Counted from the first letter of the stretch, positions 10,871-19,690 are shown. The stretch is DNA of 59,215 nt from Candidatus Eiseniibacteriota bacterium (GCA_030622115.1 JAUXGN010000017.1:1-59215), one strand, 5' to 3'. The notes: generated by a model from the sequence alone, not told the origin. Numbers and translations are program-made.

Positions 10871-11384
10871 GCCCGAGAGACGCGACGTCGCCGGGATCGA
10901 CACCATAGTCCTTCACTGCACAGCCATGCCCGGCTGGAATGTCTGGGAGACCGCGCGCTACCACACGGGGCCGAATCACATCTCCACGGACGGGTGCCCT
11001 TCAATCGCCTACGCCTATTTCGTGGAGCCCGATGGCCTGCTCTATCGCTGTCTGCCGCATGAGATACGCTCGTGGCACGTCGGGCCGTGGAATGAACGCT
11101 CAATAGGTGTCTGCATGGCGTACGAGGCATGCGATGAGCCGCCGCCGCGCGAGCAGCTGGACGTGGCCGTCGATATCTGTGCCGATCTCGCGCTTGGGCT
11201 TGGTCTTTCCGCCGAGCGCGTGATGGGGCACAGGGAGCTGGAGGGAACGGGTTTCGTCATCGAGAATGGTGAACGCATTCAGAAGAAGGAGTGCCCTGGG
11301 TCTCTGGTTGACATGGACGAGTTCCGGCGTGCGGTCGCGGCCGCGATTGAGCGGCCCCGCGGGCCGGGAGTGATGGAGGCATGA
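10824..11384 (+). CDS. N-acetylmuramoyl-L-alanine amidase, Amidase_2 (T7 lysozyme/AmpD-like)
   Basis: The domain runs from DTIVLHCTAMPG to the end and carries the zinc set of the family: His in VLHCTA, His in GHRELEG and Cys in ECPGS, with the Lys just before CPG that corresponds to the catalytic Lys of T7 lysozyme. It should cleave the amide bond between muramic acid and L-Ala. No signal peptide is visible, which points to cytosolic recycling (AmpD-like) or non-classical export. Start uncertain: ATG 10824 (186 residues, overlaps the HAD gene by 47 bases) or ATG 10848; neither has a strong Shine-Dalgarno. The stop overlaps the next ATG in an ATGA. Confidence 0.82.
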   Translation: MRWLHDISMVLPKTGEPERRDVAGIDTIVLHCTAMPGWNVWETARYHTGPNHISTDGCPSIAYAYFVEPDGLLYRCLPHEIRSWHVGPWNERSIGVCMAYEACDEPPPREQLDVAVDICADLALGLGLSAERVMGHRELEGTGFVIENGERIQKKECPGSLVDMDEFRRAVAAAIERPRGPGVMEA

Positions 11385-12988
11385 TGCGACGCTTGGAGAT
11401 CGCCCCGGTCCTGATACTGACGTTCGTGATGGCGCTGATCTTGTATCCGTGCGGGGCCGACGCCGCTGACGCAGCTTCTCTCGAGAGTCTCTCCTGGATC
11501 ATAGATTCATTCCTGGCGAAGCCGCACCTGCGAGGTGCGGAGCTCTCCATCATCGTCCAGTCGCTGGATCCCTGTCTGCCGGATCACGAGTCGCTCGGTG
11601 GAGACCTGCCGGATCACGAGTCGCTCGGTGGAGACCTGCCGGACCTTGGCTCGGCGGATGCAAGCACGCGCTGGTCGCTCTACGAGCGCCATGCCGACCG
11701 TCCGATGATCCCTGCCTCGAACATGAAGGTAGTGACGGCTGCGGCAACCCTCTCACTGCTGGGGCCCGACTACAGGTTCGAGACCAGCTTCTCGACCGAC
11801 AGCGATGTGACTTCCCCGGTCCTGAATGGCAACCTCTACGTGAGAGGCAGCGGTGATCCATCACTCGTATCCGAAGAACTCTGGAAGATCGCGGATGAGT
11901 TTCGGACAAGGGGAATCGAGCGGATCACGGGGGACATAGTCCTCGATGCATCGTATTTCGACGGCCTTGCGACGGCGACCGATGCCGCCGGAGATGGTGA
12001 TCGCGCCTACCACGCGAGAACGAGCGCCCTCTCCGCGAATTTCAACACGGTTCGCGTGCACGTCCACCCCGGCGCAAAGGCGCGAGATGCCGCCCGCGTT
12101 GAGCTTTCGCCCGAGACCGGATTCGTCGACGTGCTGAGCGACGCCACGACCTGCTCCGCCCACCGCAGCCAGACGATCCAGGTGAGGCGCAGTCTTGAAA
12201 GCGGTCGGAACGTCGTCCGTGTCTCCGGGCGGATACCTGTAGGCCACCGTGGAAAGGTATTCTATCGGAATATCGATGACCCCGTGGGATCGTTCGGTGC
12301 AACGCTCGTGAGCTTTCTGGAAGGCGCCGGCATAGCGCTTGATGGAAGCGTCGTCCAGGGCGCCGAACCCGACAACGCGCGCGAGCTGCTTGTTCACCGT
12401 TCGAAGCCGCTCTCGCTCATCGTCAGGGATCTCAACAAGTTCAGCAACAATTTCACAGCCGAGCAGCTTCTGAAGACACTCGGCGCGATGAACGGCGATG
12501 GGGGAAATCCTGACGACGGGAGTCCGGGCAACGAAAGCACGGACCACGGACCCCGAGCCTCCGGCACGACCGCTTCCGGAGCGACAGTCCTGATGGACTA
12601 TCTTGAGCAGCTTGGTATCGACACAGCCGAGCTGAGAATCGCCGATGGCTCGGGTCTGTCGCGCGAGAACAGGCTGACCGTACGTTCCCTTGCCGGCGTC
12701 ATCCGGGAGATGTACGCTGACTTCGGGGTAGGGTCCGAGTACCTCTCCTCGCTGAGCGTGAGCGGCACGGACGGGACGCTCGGAGACCGGATGGGCTTCG
12801 GCGGGTTGACCGGAGCGCTCAGGGCGAAGACCGGTCTTCTGGACGGTGTGACCGCTATCTCCGGTGTCATGGAGACCGTGACAGGGAAGAGGGTCCTCTT
12901 CTCCATAATCGTCAATGGTTGGTCGTGCGAGGCGTGGAAGGTCCACGACATGGAGCACGCGATCCTCCTTCACATCTACGAGAGCTAA
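11381..12988 (+). CDS. dacB: D-alanyl-D-alanine carboxypeptidase/endopeptidase, S13 (PBP4-type)
   Basis: 535 residues with an N-terminal signal peptide (VLILTFVMALILYPCGADA). The three penicillin-binding motifs are in order: SNMK (Ser113 nucleophile, Lys116), SNN (Ser355) and KTG (Lys483), with the long insertion between the first two that is typical of the S13 family. It trims or cuts cross-linked peptidoglycan in the periplasm. It overlaps the amidase stop by four bases, so the two wall enzymes are probably translated together. Odd features: a perfect 30-base duplication near residues 66-85, and a Gly/Asn/Ser-rich stretch (NGDGGNPDDGSPGNES) just after the SxN motif. Confidence 0.9.
   Translation: MMRRLEIAPVLILTFVMALILYPCGADAADAASLESLSWIIDSFLAKPHLRGAELSIIVQSLDPCLPDHESLGGDLPDHESLGGDLPDLGSADASTRWSLYERHADRPMIPASNMKVVTAAATLSLLGPDYRFETSFSTDSDVTSPVLNGNLYVRGSGDPSLVSEELWKIADEFRTRGIERITGDIVLDASYFDGLATATDAAGDGDRAYHARTSALSANFNTVRVHVHPGAKARDAARVELSPETGFVDVLSDATTCSAHRSQTIQVRRSLESGRNVVRVSGRIPVGHRGKVFYRNIDDPVGSFGATLVSFLEGAGIALDGSVVQGAEPDNARELLVHRSKPLSLIVRDLNKFSNNFTAEQLLKTLGAMNGDGGNPDDGSPGNESTDHGPRASGTTASGATVLMDYLEQLGIDTAELRIADGSGLSRENRLTVRSLAGVIREMYADFGVGSEYLSSLSVSGTDGTLGDRMGFGGLTGALRAKTGLLDGVTAISGVMETVTGKRVLFSIIVNGWSCEAWKVHDMEHAILLHIYES
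11576..11635 (+). repeat. Perfect 30-bp tandem duplication inside dacB
   Basis: Two identical 30-base units (11576-11605 and 11606-11635) are followed by the start of a third (CTGCCGGA). The reading frame is kept, so the protein gains LPDHESLGGD twice. Identity of both copies suggests a recent slippage or duplication event. Confidence 0.95.
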
Positions 12989-13007: not shown

Positions 13008-14123
13008 GTGGCAAAGGAGCGGCCCCCCAGATTCACAGCCAGGGATTTCGGCGCTACGGCGCGAACTCTCATCCTGTGGGTCGTGGCGAACTCGCTTGCA
13101 GGCGCCCTCGTCGGCGTGGCGATTGCTCTCTTCGCCGATCGCCCCGGTGCGATCCAGAGTTTCGTTCCCTTGAGCATCCTCTTTGCCAACGCCGTTGGCT
13201 TTGCAGCTGGGCTCACCGCGCGCTTCATTTTGCCACGCTACAGTGTGCTACCGGTCTACGTAAGGGTTCCGCTCGCCATCATCACGCTTCTTGCGGGGGG
13301 CGCGTTCGGATCGGTTTTGGTTATCTTTCGGAACCCCTTGTTCGTTCTCTATCAGGGCCGCCTGACCCTTCTGCTCGTGCTGGTCGACAGCGTCATCGCG
13401 GTCATTGTCGGCCTCATCACCTACAACTACGAGCAGATGAGACAGGAGATAGAACGAGGCTACAGGGAACTCGCCGAGAACCGCGTCCGGGAGGAAAGAC
13501 TGAGAGAGCTTGCCACGCGGTCCGAGCTAAAGGCCCTGAAGGCCCAGATCAACCCGCATTTCCTCTTCAATGCGCTGAACTCCATCTCGGCACTGACGAC
13601 CATAGATCCGGAGGCCGCCCGGCGCACGCTCGAGCGCCTCGCCAGCGTGTTCAGGAAAACCCTTCTGGCTTCGGAGCAGGGCAGCGTGCCGCTCACCCGG
13701 GAGCTGGAACTCGTCGACGCCTACCTTGACATCGAGCGGGCCCGCTTCGGAGACCGGATGCGCGTGGAGCACTCGATAGCACCGGGCGCCGGAGATGTGG
13801 AGATCCCGCCGCTCATACTGCAACCGATCGTGGAGAACGCCGTGCGCCACGGGATATCACCGAGCGTGAGCGGTGGAACCGTGAGCATTGATGCAAGGAT
13901 CACGGACGGATTCCTCGTGATCACGGTGCGAGACGATGGTGTCGGTGTCTCGACCGACGATTTGCACGACACAATGTCGACCGGCTACGGTCTAAGGAGT
14001 GTGCGCGACAGGCTCAGCACGCGCTACGGCCCCGGCGACTGGGTCACGATCACGAGCGAGCCCGACCGTGGGATGACCGTCCGCCTCACCATTCCCATCG
14101 GAGCGGGGGAGGAAGAGGAATGA
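13008..14123 (+). CDS. LytS/YehU-type sensor histidine kinase with four-helix membrane module
   Basis: Start GTG 13008 is chosen because ACGAGGAGG lies just upstream and the gene then begins 19 bases after dacB. Product 371 residues: four membrane helices (about 20-42, 50-72, 78-100, 108-130), a coiled linker, then the His_kinase segment QINPHFLFNALNSI with the phospho-acceptor His184, and HATPase_c boxes (LQPIVENAVRHGI, VRDDGVGVS, GYGLRSVRDRL). Such kinases phosphorylate LytTR-type regulators, and that partner overlaps its stop by four bases. The membrane part is not the 5TM LytS or GAF type but matches the N-terminus of the phosphatase encoded at 16444. Confidence 0.9.
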   Translation: MAKERPPRFTARDFGATARTLILWVVANSLAGALVGVAIALFADRPGAIQSFVPLSILFANAVGFAAGLTARFILPRYSVLPVYVRVPLAIITLLAGGAFGSVLVIFRNPLFVLYQGRLTLLLVLVDSVIAVIVGLITYNYEQMRQEIERGYRELAENRVREERLRELATRSELKALKAQINPHFLFNALNSISALTTIDPEAARRTLERLASVFRKTLLASEQGSVPLTRELELVDAYLDIERARFGDRMRVEHSIAPGAGDVEIPPLILQPIVENAVRHGISPSVSGGTVSIDARITDGFLVITVRDDGVGVSTDDLHDTMSTGYGLRSVRDRLSTRYGPGDWVTITSEPDRGMTVRLTIPIGAGEEEE

Positions 14124-14875
14124 TCGATACGATCAGGGTTCTTGTCGTCGACGATGAGGAACTGGCGCGCGCACGGGTGAAGGCCCTCCTTGCAGAATGC
14201 GAGGGGTGCGAGTGTGTGGGCGAGGCGGAGAACGGTCTCGTGGCAGTGGAGAGGATCAAGGAGCTCTCCCCGGATCTTGTCATACTCGACATACAGATGC
14301 CCGGCATGAGCGGTTTCGAGGTGATCGAAGCCCTCGACGACACACCTCTCATCATCTTCGCGACCGCATTCGACGAGTACGCCATCAAGGCCTTTGAGGT
14401 GAACTCAATCGACTACCTTCTTAAGCCGATTGAGAAGGAGAGATTCGCGGAGGCGATCGGGCGGGCGCGCGAGCTCCTCGATAGCGACCCGACACTCAGC
14501 GAACACATAGACCGTCTGGCGACGCTCGTTCGCCACGAGGGCATCAACCGGCTGCCCGTCACGAAGGGCAAGAAAATCGTAGTGTTGGATATCGATCGAA
14601 TCGTATGGATCGAGGCATCCGACGAACTCATTTTCGTACACACGAAGGCCGAGCGCTACCTCGTCAACATGACAATGACGGAGCTCGAACGAAGGCTGGA
14701 TGGAACCGTATTCTTCCGGACCCACCGATCGAGCATCGTGAACCTGAATCGCGTGGTCGAGATCGTCCCGTGGTTCGGAGGGAAGTACAAGGTCGTCATG
14801 GACGACGCCGATCGCACGGAGGTCGTGCTCTCCCGCGCGCGGGCGAAGAGCCTGCGCGGGATTCTGCCCTGGTAG
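14120..14875 (+). CDS. LytTR-family response regulator
   Basis: 251 residues starting in the ATGA overlap with the kinase. Residues 1-120 are a receiver domain with the acidic pair VVDDEE, phospho-acceptor Asp57 (VILDIQMPG), the conserved Thr in FATAFDEYA and Lys in LKPIEK. Residues about 140-245 are a LytTR DNA-binding domain (IVVLDIDRIVWIEASDE, FFRTHRSSIVNLNRV). It should bind tandem direct repeats upstream of weak promoters. Three 20-base repeats begin 25 bases past its stop, in front of the next gene, and are a natural candidate target. Confidence 0.93.
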   Translation: MIDTIRVLVVDDEELARARVKALLAECEGCECVGEAENGLVAVERIKELSPDLVILDIQMPGMSGFEVIEALDDTPLIIFATAFDEYAIKAFEVNSIDYLLKPIEKERFAEAIGRARELLDSDPTLSEHIDRLATLVRHEGINRLPVTKGKKIVVLDIDRIVWIEASDELIFVHTKAERYLVNMTMTELERRLDGTVFFRTHRSSIVNLNRVVEIVPWFGGKYKVVMDDADRTEVVLSRARAKSLRGILPW

Positions 14876-14900
14876 CAGGGCTCCAACTCACCTGCAGGAA

Positions 14901-14960
14901 CCACCACTTCACGGGTGCATCCGTCATTTGACGGGCGTATCCGTCACTTGACGGACATTG
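14901..14960 (+). repeat. Three tandem 20-bp repeats, two of them palindromic (candidate operator)
   Basis: Units 14901-14920, 14921-14940 and 14941-14960 are in exact 20-base register. Units 2 and 3 each contain a dyad (CCGTCA-TT-TGACGG and TCCGTCA-CT-TGACGGA); unit 1 is a degraded copy (CCACCACTTCACGG). A two-turn period puts all copies on one DNA face. The array ends two bases before the -35 position of the promoter candidate for the bactofilin-like gene, as expected for an activator site. The neighbouring LytTR regulator is the obvious candidate binder. Confidence 0.7.
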
Positions 14961-14962
14961 CC

Positions 14963-14991
14963 TTCATGCAATGCCGTCCGGCTCGTATTAT
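14963..14991 (+). promoter_or_regulatory. Candidate activator-dependent promoter of the bactofilin-like gene
   Basis: TATTAT (14986-14991) is a good -10 element; 17 bases upstream the -35 position reads only TTCATG. A poor -35 directly abutting the three 20-base repeats is the classic layout of a class II-like activated promoter. The leader to ATG 15085 would be about 85 bases. Inference from pattern only. Confidence 0.45.
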
Positions 14992-15084
14992 TGCACTGTG
15001 AGAGACATACGAGAGCAAAGCAGCCAGCCCGGCTGGGGGCGCTGCAGACACGGCTCATGTCGAGCCGATAACGGGGGGAAGGAA

Positions 15085-16440
15085 ATGAGTGCGAAGCGGA
15101 ACATCATGGCGAGCATCGTGGTCATAGTGATTGCGCTCGTGATTGGGCTCGCAGTTCCTGCCGCCGCCGACGGAGTGGTTCTCGGGAAGGCCGCCACGGC
15201 GGCCGTCGCCGGAGCGGCAACGAGCGCGGCGTCGGGGATCCAGACGATCGACGATTCGGTCATTCCATCGTCCGGGACGAGCATCACTGCCAACACGATG
15301 CGGTTCGAGCAGACGGGGAGCTTCAACATCCCTGAGGGTGAGACGGAGTCCTACGATGTCTATATCTGGACTCAGGCCTTCAATATCGACGGAACACTCG
15401 ACGGCGACGCCATCGTCTGGGCGCAGTGGGTAACGATCAACGGGACGCTGACCCAGGACCTGCTCGTATTTGCTCAGGACGTCACCATCAACGGTATCGT
15501 CGGTGATGATGTCCGGATCTTCGCCCAGAACGTCTACATCCATGGAACGATAAAGGGTGATGCTTTGATCGGGGCAGCGAACCTCATCATCTACGACGAT
15601 GCCGTCATCGAAGGCAGCCTTCTCGCTGGGGCCGGTCAAATGACGCACCGTGGAACCGTCAAGGGCGACGCGAGAATCGGCCTGGGTGAGCTCACAATGG
15701 CCGGCGTGATCGAGGGCAACGCCGAGCTTTTCACGGACGGAGGTATCACGCTTCTCGACGGAGCGCACATCGGCGGCGATCTCATCTACCAGGGACCGAC
15801 ACAGATCGATTTCGGCAGCGGGGTCTGTTCCGGATCCATCACATTCAGGGAGCAGGACACTGACAAGGATGATATCGCTGACGCCATCAGTTCCTTCGGG
15901 CGCTTTAAGTCTGTCATGCATCTTCTCGGGCTCATCGCTGCCATCATCGCGGGCAGCATCATCATCGCCTTGACGAGCGATCATGCGAAGAAGACGGCCA
16001 ACATTATCAGGACGAAGCCTCTCAAGAGCGTGGGGATCGGGTTCATCGCTTTCATCTGTATGCCGATCATCATCGTTCTCTCGATTGTCTTCATCATCAC
16101 GATTCCTTTCGGTGTCGTGTTGACGATGGCCTATCTCATCGCTCTATACATCGCCAAGTTCTACGTAGCCATCTGGCTTGGTAACACGGTTCTCAGGCGC
16201 GGTGATGCAATCATGACGAAGTCGCCTGTTCCTCCAATGCTGCTTGGTCTACTCGGTGTCTACATCATCACCGCGATACCAGTCATAGGCACGCTGTCAG
16301 GCATCGTCATCATCTTCTTCGGTCTCGGCGCGCTGCTGCAGCGGAAGGAGACCGGTTTGGCCACCGCTTTTGAGCCGACACCGGTTGTGACCGAAGTAGG
16401 ACTTCCGAGTGCATTCCCCGGAACCGGTACGGAGGAATAG
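15085..16440 (+). CDS. Bactofilin-like polymer-forming beta-helix protein with C-terminal membrane domain
   Basis: ATG 15085 follows GGGGGAAGGAA; product 451 residues. A signal peptide or first helix (IMASIVVIVIALVIGLAVPAAA) is followed by a hydrophilic stretch. Residues about 85-260 hold repeated short beta segments (DGTLDGDAIVWAQ, NGTLTQDLLVFAQ, NGIVGDDVRIFAQ, HGTIKGDALIGAA), the right-handed beta-helix pattern of polymer-forming (bactofilin) proteins. From about 277 there are four or five hydrophobic helices. The repeat domain is therefore probably outside the cytoplasmic membrane, unlike classical cytosolic bactofilins. A short charged tail follows. The SpoIIE-type phosphatase gene starts three bases after its stop, so the two are co-expressed. 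Function inferred: an envelope scaffold. Confidence 0.8.
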   Translation: MSAKRNIMASIVVIVIALVIGLAVPAAADGVVLGKAATAAVAGAATSAASGIQTIDDSVIPSSGTSITANTMRFEQTGSFNIPEGETESYDVYIWTQAFNIDGTLDGDAIVWAQWVTINGTLTQDLLVFAQDVTINGIVGDDVRIFAQNVYIHGTIKGDALIGAANLIIYDDAVIEGSLLAGAGQMTHRGTVKGDARIGLGELTMAGVIEGNAELFTDGGITLLDGAHIGGDLIYQGPTQIDFGSGVCSGSITFREQDTDKDDIADAISSFGRFKSVMHLLGLIAAIIAGSIIIALTSDHAKKTANIIRTKPLKSVGIGFIAFICMPIIIVLSIVFIITIPFGVVLTMAYLIALYIAKFYVAIWLGNTVLRRGDAIMTKSPVPPMLLGLLGVYIITAIPVIGTLSGIVIIFFGLGALLQRKETGLATAFEPTPVVTEVGLPSAFPGTGTEE

Positions 16441-16443
16441 CCG

Positions 16444-17793
16444 ATGAGTCGAGGTACACGCGGCACTTCATCTCAGGCACTCTCCCGGAGGCTCACCTTC
16501 AAGACCGTCCTTCTCTGGGCGCTTGCAGCCAGTGCTGCGGGCCTGGCGATCGGTCTGGCGATTCTGGTGTTCTCCGGGAGTGAAGGCGGCGTGGCGCGAT
16601 CGCTCATTACGATGAGCATCGTGTTCGCCAATGTTGCAGTGTTTGCAGCGGTGCTCACGGTACGCTACGTGCTTCCGAAGATGAGCGGTTTTCCGGTCTA
16701 CGTTCGTTTTCCGCTCGCAGTCATCACGCTGATTGCAGCCGGCGTGTTCGGGAGCGGTCTGGCCATTCTCATCAATCCGCTGATTGTTCTCTACCAGATG
16801 AAGAATGCTCTCATGATCGTGACCGTGAACGGAGTTGTCGCGCTTACGATCGGAGCCATCACGTACAACTACGAGCTTCTGAGGGAGCAGATCGAAGTAG
16901 TTGTCGCTGAACGAAGCAAGTTGGAGCGGGAGATGGACATCGCACGGACGATCCAGACTCAGCTCTTGCCCAAGAGCTTCCCCGAACTGCCCGGCTGGGA
17001 CATATATGGATTCAGTGTCCCCGCGCGGCACGTGGGTGGGGACTGCTTCGATGTTATCGACTTGGGCGATGGGAAACTCGCTATCACGATCGGAGATGTG
17101 GCTGGAAAGGGAACTCCGGCTGCGATCCTCATGGCGAACGTTCAGGCTGCGGTCCGGGCTTTGGCGGAGAGCGGAGTTGAGCCGCGGAAACTCATGCGGC
17201 ACGTCAACCGGATTGCCCACAGCTACACAGGGGACAGTGAGTTCATCACGTTCTTCTACTGCGTCCTCGACACGAGGACGGGGGAGATTCGCTACGTCAA
17301 CGCCGGGCACAATCTGCCTTGCGTTCTTCGCAGGAGCGGAGAGAAGGAATTCCTCGACAAGGGCGGGCTGATCGTCGGCATCATGCCTGATGTTGCGTAC
17401 GAGGATGCTGTTGTCACGCTGCGTTCCGGTGACAGCGTCGTTCTCTTCACCGATGGTGTGACGGAGGCGCTGAATCCGCATGATGAAATGTTCGGAGATG
17501 AGCGGCTGGAAGATCTTCTGGTTGAGCATCGACATCTTGGGGCTCATGACATTGAGGAACGTGTCTACTCCGAACTAAAGGGTTTCGTAGCTGGGGCAGC
17601 GCAGGCGGACGACATCACGATGGTCGCCGTGAAGTGCAGCGCGGACACGGTAGCCCCAACGTTCTACGAAGAAAGCTCGGACTCCCCCCGAGAGGCCAAT
17701 GGTGGGCTCTCTGCCGCGCGAGGTGTTTCCTCAGGGAATCACCTTAGAGAGCCCGCCGAGGCTGCCGTTCCGGTCACGACGATTGTGACATGA
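16444..17793 (+). CDS. Membrane-bound SpoIIE/RsbU-type PP2C serine phosphatase
   Basis: 449 residues. Residues about 18-150 form a four-helix membrane module; residues 59-151 match residues 57-149 of the histidine kinase at 13008 at about 53 of 93 positions by hand alignment (shared FPVYVRFPLA-like, NPLxVLYQ and TYNYE motifs). A coiled segment ending EMDIARTIQTQLLP leads into the PP2C domain with its metal-binding acids (GGDCFDVIDLGDGKLAITIGD, GDVAGKG, LFTDGVTEA, ADDITMVAVK). Family members dephosphorylate anti-anti-sigma or STAS proteins in partner-switching cascades; no STAS or anti-sigma gene is in the window. The last 60 residues are a low-complexity tail. Confidence 0.9.
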   Translation: MSRGTRGTSSQALSRRLTFKTVLLWALAASAAGLAIGLAILVFSGSEGGVARSLITMSIVFANVAVFAAVLTVRYVLPKMSGFPVYVRFPLAVITLIAAGVFGSGLAILINPLIVLYQMKNALMIVTVNGVVALTIGAITYNYELLREQIEVVVAERSKLEREMDIARTIQTQLLPKSFPELPGWDIYGFSVPARHVGGDCFDVIDLGDGKLAITIGDVAGKGTPAAILMANVQAAVRALAESGVEPRKLMRHVNRIAHSYTGDSEFITFFYCVLDTRTGEIRYVNAGHNLPCVLRRSGEKEFLDKGGLIVGIMPDVAYEDAVVTLRSGDSVVLFTDGVTEALNPHDEMFGDERLEDLLVEHRHLGAHDIEERVYSELKGFVAGAAQADDITMVAVKCSADTVAPTFYEESSDSPREANGGLSAARGVSSGNHLREPAEAAVPVTTIVT

Positions 17794-17830: not shown

Positions 17831-19690
17831 TTGAAGCGGAGAAAACTGGTCGTCGGAATCGCGGTTGCCGCCACACTTCTCATCGTCACGGGGCTTTGTC
17901 GGGCGGAGTCGATCGATCCATATGTCGTGATGGAGGATCACATCGAAGCGCTCGGCGGCCTGGATGCCGTCATGGCCGAGAAGACGTCTCATCTCACAGC
18001 AACGATAACCCTTCCCGGTCTCTCCGGAACGATTGAGCAGTGGACGATGCGTCCGGGAATGGAGCGGGTTGAAGCCGACCTGCTCGTTATCAAGCAGATC
18101 GTGGGCGACAATGGAGACGTGGCGTGGGCGTTGGATACTAATGGGAAGCTCCAGATTACGCGTGATGAGGCGGCTCTCAAGAGGCGGATTGTGGACACCG
18201 CATTCGGGGAGCACGAGTATCTCGATCGGGATTCGAGCCTCTTCTCGCTCTCGTACGACGGAACTGACGATGTGGGTGAGGTCGAGTGCCACGTCATTCG
18301 CGTGGCGAACAGCCTGAACTCCGACATTACCGTGTTCTACATTGACACATCCATCCATCTGATGGTGAAGCAGAGCGATATCCATCCTGACGGGGTTTCG
18401 GATTGCGTGTTCTCGGATTACAGAGAAGTGAGCGGTGTGATGCACGCTTTTCGCGCTGAGACGGAGATCCTTCCCATCGGTCAGAAGCATACCGTCGTGA
18501 CAACGACGTACGAAGTGAACCCCGATATCGATCCATCGATCTTCGATCCTCCGTCGGACGAGACCTGCGACTACGTGTTCACGCACGGCACGAATTCGGA
18601 GAACGTCCCGATGCGCTTCATCGAGAACCACATCTACATGAACGTCATCATCGGTTGTCGCGAAAGCACATGGATTCTCGACACCGGGGCCAGCATGACC
18701 GTGATCGATGAGACCTATGCCCGGGAGCTGGGACTTGAGCCCGAGGGCCATGTGAAAGGCGGTGGGGCAGGCAATACGATCGAGGTTTCGTTCGTGGATC
18801 TGCCACCCTTCTCCATACAGGGGATCGAATTCGGAGAGCAGACTGCGGCCGCCATCGATATCGCGGGTCTCTTCGAGCAGACCGGGGACTTGGAAGTGGC
18901 GGGCATCCTGGGATACGATTTCCTCTCGCGATTCGTGACTCGCGTCGACTATGCCAACGAGCTCCTATCGTTCTACGATCCGTCGTCCTTTGCTTATGAC
19001 GGTCCGGGGGTGATGATCGACGCTCCCCTGAGCGGCAACACCTTCACCGTCCCCATGAGTGTGGACGGCATCTACGCGGGGAGATGGAGTCTTGACCTCG
19101 GGGCCACTGGAGAGACCTTCCACTATCCCTATGCAGAAGCGAACGGGATGCTCGACCTTGACGGCGTGGACCGCATCGGGTTCGGCGCCGGCGGGAGTTT
19201 CGCAGTGCGCGGCATCCGGTTTGAAACAGTGGAGATAGCCGGTTACGTTCTGAACGGTCCCCTGATCGGAGTTCCAACCGGTGAGCTCAAGGGAGCGTTC
19301 AGCAGAAGTGAACTCATCGGGAATCTTGGAAACAGAACCCTGAGGAATTTTGTAGTCTACCTCGACTACGAGCGCCAACAGGTAGTTTTCGAGAAGGGCG
19401 AGGACTACGCACGGCAATTTCCTCCGGACAGGTCGGGTCTTCAGTTCTGGCGACCAGAGGGAGACGAGATCGCAGTGCTCTTCGCCGCGCCCGGCACGCC
19501 TGCTGAGCGGGCGGGACTCCGTGAAGGCGACGTGATCGCGGCCATCAACGGCATAGGCGTGGAGCACCTTGGTGGACTCCTTGCCCTGCGCGAACTCATG
19601 CGTGCAGATCCCGGCACAAGGTATGAGATCGGCATTGTGCGCGAGGGCAGACACAAGAAGCTCAAGCTCAAGCTTGACGATCTGTTCTAG
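17831..19690 (+). CDS. Secreted retropepsin-like aspartyl protease with C-terminal PDZ domain
   Basis: TTG 17831, behind GAGAAAGGA, gives a signal peptide (VVGIAVAATLLIVTGLCRA). The first 230 residues resemble an LolA/MucB-like beta fold (DAVMAEKTSHLTATITLPG, DYREVSGVMHAFRAE). A pepsin-like motif follows, WILDTGASMTVID (Asp284), then a second half with the equivalent strand WSLDLGATGE (Asp422), where Thr/Ser is replaced by Leu-Gly-Ala, so only one site is canonical. Residues about 540-619 form a PDZ domain (PAERAGLREGDVIAAING). A periplasmic substrate-binding protease is likely. It sits 37 bases after the phosphatase and is followed by a strong hairpin, so it may end this transcription unit. 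Confidence 0.85.
   Translation: MKRRKLVVGIAVAATLLIVTGLCRAESIDPYVVMEDHIEALGGLDAVMAEKTSHLTATITLPGLSGTIEQWTMRPGMERVEADLLVIKQIVGDNGDVAWALDTNGKLQITRDEAALKRRIVDTAFGEHEYLDRDSSLFSLSYDGTDDVGEVECHVIRVANSLNSDITVFYIDTSIHLMVKQSDIHPDGVSDCVFSDYREVSGVMHAFRAETEILPIGQKHTVVTTTYEVNPDIDPSIFDPPSDETCDYVFTHGTNSENVPMRFIENHIYMNVIIGCRESTWILDTGASMTVIDETYARELGLEPEGHVKGGGAGNTIEVSFVDLPPFSIQGIEFGEQTAAAIDIAGLFEQTGDLEVAGILGYDFLSRFVTRVDYANELLSFYDPSSFAYDGPGVMIDAPLSGNTFTVPMSVDGIYAGRWSLDLGATGETFHYPYAEANGMLDLDGVDRIGFGAGGSFAVRGIRFETVEIAGYVLNGPLIGVPTGELKGAFSRSELIGNLGNRTLRNFVVYLDYERQQVVFEKGEDYARQFPPDRSGLQFWRPEGDEIAVLFAAPGTPAERAGLREGDVIAAINGIGVEHLGGLLALRELMRADPGTRYEIGIVREGRHKKLKLKLDDLF

Follow-up and report, generated by a model that had tools for sequence, protein, structure and literature searches.

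The locus examined here raises the question of why a histidine kinase and a PP2C phosphatase encoded close together carry the same membrane module, and whether their output domains act as parallel branches or as successive steps of one circuit. The window (the whole stretch of DNA that was analysed, 59,215 nucleotides) comes from a member of the candidate phylum Effluviviacota, and the genes and protein regions under study are as follows.

11381-12988, + strand: DacB-like (PBP4-type) gene, a conserved neighbor of the kinase in the phylum by synteny, named from reading the sequence
13008-14123, + strand: LytS-type sensor histidine kinase, 371 aa, GTG start (PF06580, E 1.4e-26; HATPase_c, 1.2e-13)
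13041-13463, + strand: four-helix membrane module as present in the kinase, residues ~12-152 (BLASTP, alignments and hydropathy)
13431-13559, + strand: helical linker of the kinase, E142 (where TM4 ends) through His184 of the H-box (gap-free in 14 sequences)
14120-14875, + strand: LytTR response regulator, receiver plus LytTR DNA-binding domain (PF00072, 6e-24; PF04397, 2.8e-27)
15085-16440, + strand: bactofilin-like membrane protein, 451 aa (Pfam Bactofilin, E 9e-6, below cut-off)
16444-17793, + strand: SpoIIE/RsbU-type PP2C phosphatase, 449 aa (PF07228, E 9.5e-53)
16489-16899, + strand: four-helix membrane module as present in the phosphatase, residues ~16-152 (BLASTP, AF2 helices)
16873-16971, + strand: phosphatase linker helix, from TM4 into the PP2C domain (AF2 model; gap-free in 15 sequences)

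The shared membrane module and its coupling to two output domains

The kinase, LytTR regulator, bactofilin-like protein and phosphatase are encoded where the original prediction had placed them, all on the + strand, and the membrane parts of the kinase and phosphatase are homologous as it had claimed. BLASTP aligns the two proteins in the membrane part only, with 60 of 116 residues identical, 84 of 116 similar and one gap (E 8e-35). The limits first given to the shared region (residues 57-149) prove too narrow, the homology extending over ~12-152 and taking in all four transmembrane helices of a module of ~140 residues, of which the source genome holds two copies. The output domains are indeed unrelated, with PF06580 and HATPase_c in the kinase and the SpoIIE domain PF07228 in the phosphatase.

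The module does not correspond to a common named domain, which would have counted against the original prediction; Pfam and NCBIfam scans of the window proteins give no domain match to it. A Pfam scan of 14 members of the module family returns no recurrent match, a PDB sequence search with the module returns none, and the N-terminal 150 residues of the kinase give Pfam matches at chance level only, with no named LytS receptor sensor domain among them. The possibility that the module is the usual N terminus of LytS kinases was rejected on comparison with ~35 other PF06580 kinase N termini; in profile comparison a single kinase, L158, shows weak relatedness (24% over 111 columns, Probab 39), and it is followed by a LytTR regulator, whereas the other scores resemble those of reversed controls.

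Residues strongly conserved in both families are Trp-24, Asn-61, Pro-76, Pro-82, Pro-88, Pro-110, Tyr-115, Tyr-139, Tyr-141, and Glu-142, located in and adjoining the helices. The loops outside the membrane are only ~10 residues long, so the module likely senses a signal within the membrane or a membrane-embedded partner, and the homology of the two copies suggests that both may read the same cue. The short loops and the absence of obvious cofactor residues would also suit a membrane anchor or dimerizer that senses nothing, the real input coming from cytoplasmic partners or through the bactofilin-like protein, as would the coupling of the bactofilin-like gene to the phosphatase gene at 3-4 bp. 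Specific residues in and beside the helices are conserved in both families more strongly than a mere anchor would require, and we regard this explanation as improbable.

Among the labels given to the genes, bactofilin-like is the softest, the bactofilin match scoring 26.3 bits against a Pfam cut-off of 27.9. The protein has an N-terminal hydrophobic segment, a β-helix (~66-256) and C-terminal membrane helices (~259-422). The β-helix blocks are mostly predicted with pLDDT 85-96 by AF2, and Foldseek relates them weakly to bactofilin 6rib (prob 0.82, E 0.25). The positively charged loops suggest that the β-helix may face the periplasm.

The route from the module to the output domains is best seen in the AF2 model of the phosphatase, whose confidence is modest in the membrane part (pLDDT ~55-75) and in which helices span residues 19-44, 49-76, 85-110 and 119-174. 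The last helix runs unbroken from TM4 through the linker to the PP2C domain, and the linker is of invariant length, without a gap in the alignment, in 14 kinases and 15 phosphatases. The single TM4-linker helix and the invariant lengths agree with the published mechanism whereby coiled-coil linkers switch PP2C phosphatases by dimerizing the catalytic domains (PMC12143880). A signal would accordingly pass from TM4 along a rigid helical linker of constant length to a dimeric output domain, either kinase or PP2C. Both catalytic sites are intact. In the kinase the H-box is preserved, with His-184 and the NPHFLFN motif invariant in 14 rows of the alignment, and in the phosphatase the metal-binding residues Asp-200, Asp-218, Asp-337, Asp-389, and Asp-390 are invariant in 15 rows. 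The phosphatase matches RsbU/RssB/SpoIIE domains in Foldseek.

Distribution of the locus and origin of the two modules

The phylum Candidatus Effluviviacota, with its family Candidatus Effluviviaceae, was described from marine seeps in a paper that makes no mention of histidine kinases, two-component systems or phosphatases (PMC11323493). The sample of the phylum comprises 20 genomes of one family and eight genera. The module is present in 19 of the 20 genomes, usually in exactly two copies that are nearly always a kinase/phosphatase pair; the exception, G016 (400 contigs, 90% complete), lacks both. Two genomes have a third copy and look like mixed bins. In G003 the extra copy (C123, L039) has a module identical to the one in G007 and was set aside as a probable binning artefact; in G010 (L046/L047) there are two phosphatases that belong to different branches.

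The neighborhood singled out in the original prediction is conserved throughout the phylum, the order across genera being MATE - PfkB - HAD - amidase - DacB - kinase - LytTR - bactofilin-like - phosphatase, as judged where contigs allow and with flanking genes named from reading their sequences. The kinase and regulator genes overlap by 4 bp in most genomes, including the window, and the bactofilin-like and phosphatase genes are 3 bp apart in the window and, where one contig carries both, 3-4 bp apart in nearly every genome. The regulator and bactofilin-like genes are separated by 200-340 bp and belong to separate transcription units. Downstream, the phosphatase gene is adjoined in most genera by that of a secreted-looking protein (17831-19690 in the window) that joins a LolA-like stretch to an aspartyl protease domain of the retropepsin kind and has a PDZ domain at its C terminus.

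In the tree of the module the kinase and phosphatase copies lie on opposite sides of a branch with 100/100 support, and the copies thus separated before the genera did, in a single duplication. Gene conversion homogenizing the copies was considered and is not seen, the clades being cleanly separated. Outside the phylum, in two overlapping samples of ~385 genomes each that provide ~370 genomes from other phyla, the module has one clear match, in G077, and the other matches have E > 0.002 and are fragmentary. G077 is a single-contig genome and the only member of its own phylum in the sample; its kinase is 47% identical over 354 residues and its LytTR regulator 57%, and no phosphatase or bactofilin-like genes were found near the pair. 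The G077 module groups with the kinases on a long branch. A kinase-LytTR pair lacking the phosphatase, together with the clean split of the clades, is consistent with the module having passed once from kinase to phosphatase, and the simplest reading is that the module originally belonged to a LytS-type kinase and was copied once, in the ancestor of the phylum, onto a SpoIIE/RsbU-type PP2C phosphatase. The G077 pair (L122:8645-10296) is followed by what appears by sequence to be an ECF-type sigma factor gene.

The paired copies could serve mainly for assembly, forming mixed kinase-phosphatase dimers or clusters, perhaps with the bactofilin-like protein, in which the enzymes tune each other. Such an arrangement would account for the fixed linker lengths and for a membrane partner always encoded between the two enzymes, and modules from the same genome exceed the likeness predicted by other pairings by 1.5-2% (p ~0.01, 7-8 genera), which hints weakly at co-evolution. 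The excess comes to only 2-3 residues, for which base composition or gene conversion may be responsible, and the modules have formed separate clades with type-specific residues since the phylum ancestor, so that assembly as the main role seems rather unlikely.

Boxes and predicted promoter upstream of the bactofilin-phosphatase operon

The gap between the regulator and bactofilin-like genes contains tandem boxes in the same place across genera, and in the window the corresponding features are as follows.

14883-14954, + strand: LytTR-type boxes in tandem, ahead of the bactofilin-phosphatase operon (conserved in this gap from genus to genus, period 21)
14883-14893, + strand: box 1, CCAACTCACCT
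14904-14914, + strand: box 2, CCACTTCACGG
14924-14934, + strand: box 3, TCATTTGACGG
14944-14954, + strand: box 4, TCACTTGACGG
14963-14968 and 14986-14991, + strand: predicted promoter, -35-like TTCATG and -10 TATTAT separated by 17 bp (spacing to the last box alike in 16 genomes)

The consensus of the boxes is GC[AG][TC]TTCACC. In a blind fit using one genome per genus, a period of 21 scores 210 compared with 105-144 for the other periods from 15 to 30 and with 99-109 for shuffled sets at period 21, and the leave-one-genus-out total is 159.5 for the real sequences compared with 25-51 for shuffles. Neighboring 9-mers are separated by 12 bp. In 15 of 16 genomes, 10 bp lie between the last 9-mer and a -35-like hexamer downstream of it, and in the remaining genome 11 bp. 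The hexamers were picked by best score, so that the evidence is the convergence on one position rather than the hexamer itself; a -10 element follows at 16-18 bp. A generic sigma-70 scan of the gap does not find the promoter, the predicted elements being too weak for such a scan.

Scanning the 59-kb window for box pairs at a set threshold gives matches in this gap only, and a search across the phylum with a three-box pattern recovers the same gap. Elsewhere the pattern search for a regulon returns mostly CTCGC repeats that are GC-rich and look like coding sequence, together with single arrays of low complexity, and it shows no other recurrent target. The boxes are absent near the distant kinase-LytTR pair of G077 and were not found upstream of the kinase-LytTR operon itself. 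The boxes of the window are diverged; with a matrix trained without their own genus, its box pairs rank high and are not first among all spacings, and the boxes of genus G011 are not significant, so that the support in a single genome is moderate and the strength of the result is comparative. In the genus of the window the boxes at 14915-14960 are near-palindromic (CCGTCATTTGACGG, CCGTCACTTGACGG) with 20-bp spacing, unlike those of other genera.

LytTR sites are described as direct repeats of 9-11 nucleotides with spacers of 11-13 nucleotides (PMC4847170, PMC6193735), and such repeats are present here upstream of the -35. The arrangement of 9-mer, 12 bp, 9-mer, 10 bp, and -35 is that of the operons of LytTR Regulatory Systems, in which 9-mers 12 bp apart end 10 bp before the -35 (PMC6193735). 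The 21-bp period of the direct repeats is likewise that of YpdB, which binds two GGCATTTCAT boxes that resemble those found here (PMC4847170). Based on this match in layout, the LytTR regulator probably activates the bactofilin-phosphatase operon through the predicted sites, although other proteins could bind them.

This bears directly on the original prediction that two output branches read one cue. The homologous sensors stand; an independent, parallel reading by the two enzymes fits poorly with LytTR-type boxes preceding the phosphatase operon, which make it likely that the kinase branch sets the amount of phosphatase. Were the kinase and phosphatase mere neighbors reading the same cue independently, with the boxes belonging to another regulator, homologous sensors with different outputs and separate transcription units across the 200-340-bp gap would be expected. 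The box length, the 21-bp period and the distance to the -35 are those of the LytTR layout (PMC6193735, PMC4847170), the cognate regulator gene lies directly upstream of the gap, and the locus kinase is the only strong PF06580 kinase of the source genome (one match at E <= 1e-15), and we consider parallel branches unlikely.

The reading we favor, with somewhat better than even confidence, is a nested membrane-sensing circuit in which the kinase would phosphorylate the adjacent LytTR regulator, which would in turn bind the tandem boxes at 21-bp period and turn on both the bactofilin-like protein and the sensor-bearing phosphatase. The outputs would then be nested as in a feed-forward loop and not parallel. 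More tentatively, and at rather less than even odds, one cue may act twice, the kinase setting the amount of phosphatase and the phosphatase's own sensor its activity. This would make an AND-type, persistence-detecting feed-forward loop that links two-component signaling to partner switching, possibly with mixed complexes.

Relation to known systems and to partner switching

The kinase and regulator resemble Escherichia coli YpdA/YpdB and BtsS/BtsR in pairing a PF06580 kinase with an adjacent LytTR regulator, and BtsR is the closest NCBIfam match of the locus regulator (E 7e-50, below cut-off). They differ from both systems in the unnamed four-helix sensor and in the predicted target, which is the bactofilin-phosphatase operon. 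LytTR Regulatory Systems, which share the promoter layout, use a membrane inhibitor in contrast to the classical kinase and response regulator present here.

Sensors have been proposed to be exchangeable among PP2C phosphatases, kinases, and cyclases, and some histidine kinases carry the RsbU N-terminal domain (PMC12143880). The locus resembles this toolkit in having one sensor on different output domains and differs from it in that both outputs are encoded as neighbors at a single locus, an association maintained phylum-wide. The original prediction that no system of this composition has been described thus holds in part. The principle of an N-terminal sensor shared by PP2C phosphatases and histidine kinases is not new (PMC12143880), whereas the paired, phylum-wide kinase/phosphatase circuit appears to be undescribed; literature searches gave nothing relevant on LytTR with SpoIIE and histidine kinase, nor on bactofilin with LytTR. 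The exchange of sensor domains between kinases, cyclases, and PP2C phosphatases is considered an open question (PMC12143880), and this locus shows such an exchange, traceable to a single event and retained throughout the phylum. It provides a naturally occurring pair of proteins in which one membrane module would drive two different output domains, each by way of a linker of constant length. Should the predicted promoter wiring prove true, the locus would connect two-component signaling with Ser/Thr dephosphorylation as a feed-forward circuit open to testing, and give a handle on envelope signaling in an uncultured seep phylum.

The phosphatase is similar to RsbU, RsbP, and SpoIIE in its intact PP2C site and N-terminal helical linker and in the presence of a STAS and RsbW-like pair in the genome. 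Unlike these enzymes it carries the membrane module in place of PAS, RsbU-N, or receiver domains, and its gene belongs to the locus of the kinase and is remote from the switch genes. In the source genome a STAS gene (C63:6548-6856) adjoins an RsbW-like kinase gene (C63:6094-6468), and the STAS protein has a Ser-Thr pair at what we take to be the usual phosphorylation motif, INSTGLG. The phosphatase would dephosphorylate the phosphoserine of a STAS-type antagonist, most likely this neighbor of the RsbW-like kinase. The pair is unlinked to the kinase-phosphatase locus, with no sigma factor tied to the switch, and the genome encodes two further SpoIIE phosphatases, which have GAF domains and no membrane part. 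A second STAS protein of the source genome (L089:3394-3771) has VDYQDAARL in place of a phosphorylatable Ser/Thr motif. The C-terminal tail of the locus phosphatase (17640-17793) is of low confidence in the model and probably disordered, and the motif DSPREA.GG.SAARGA...L..PA within it is kept across genera.
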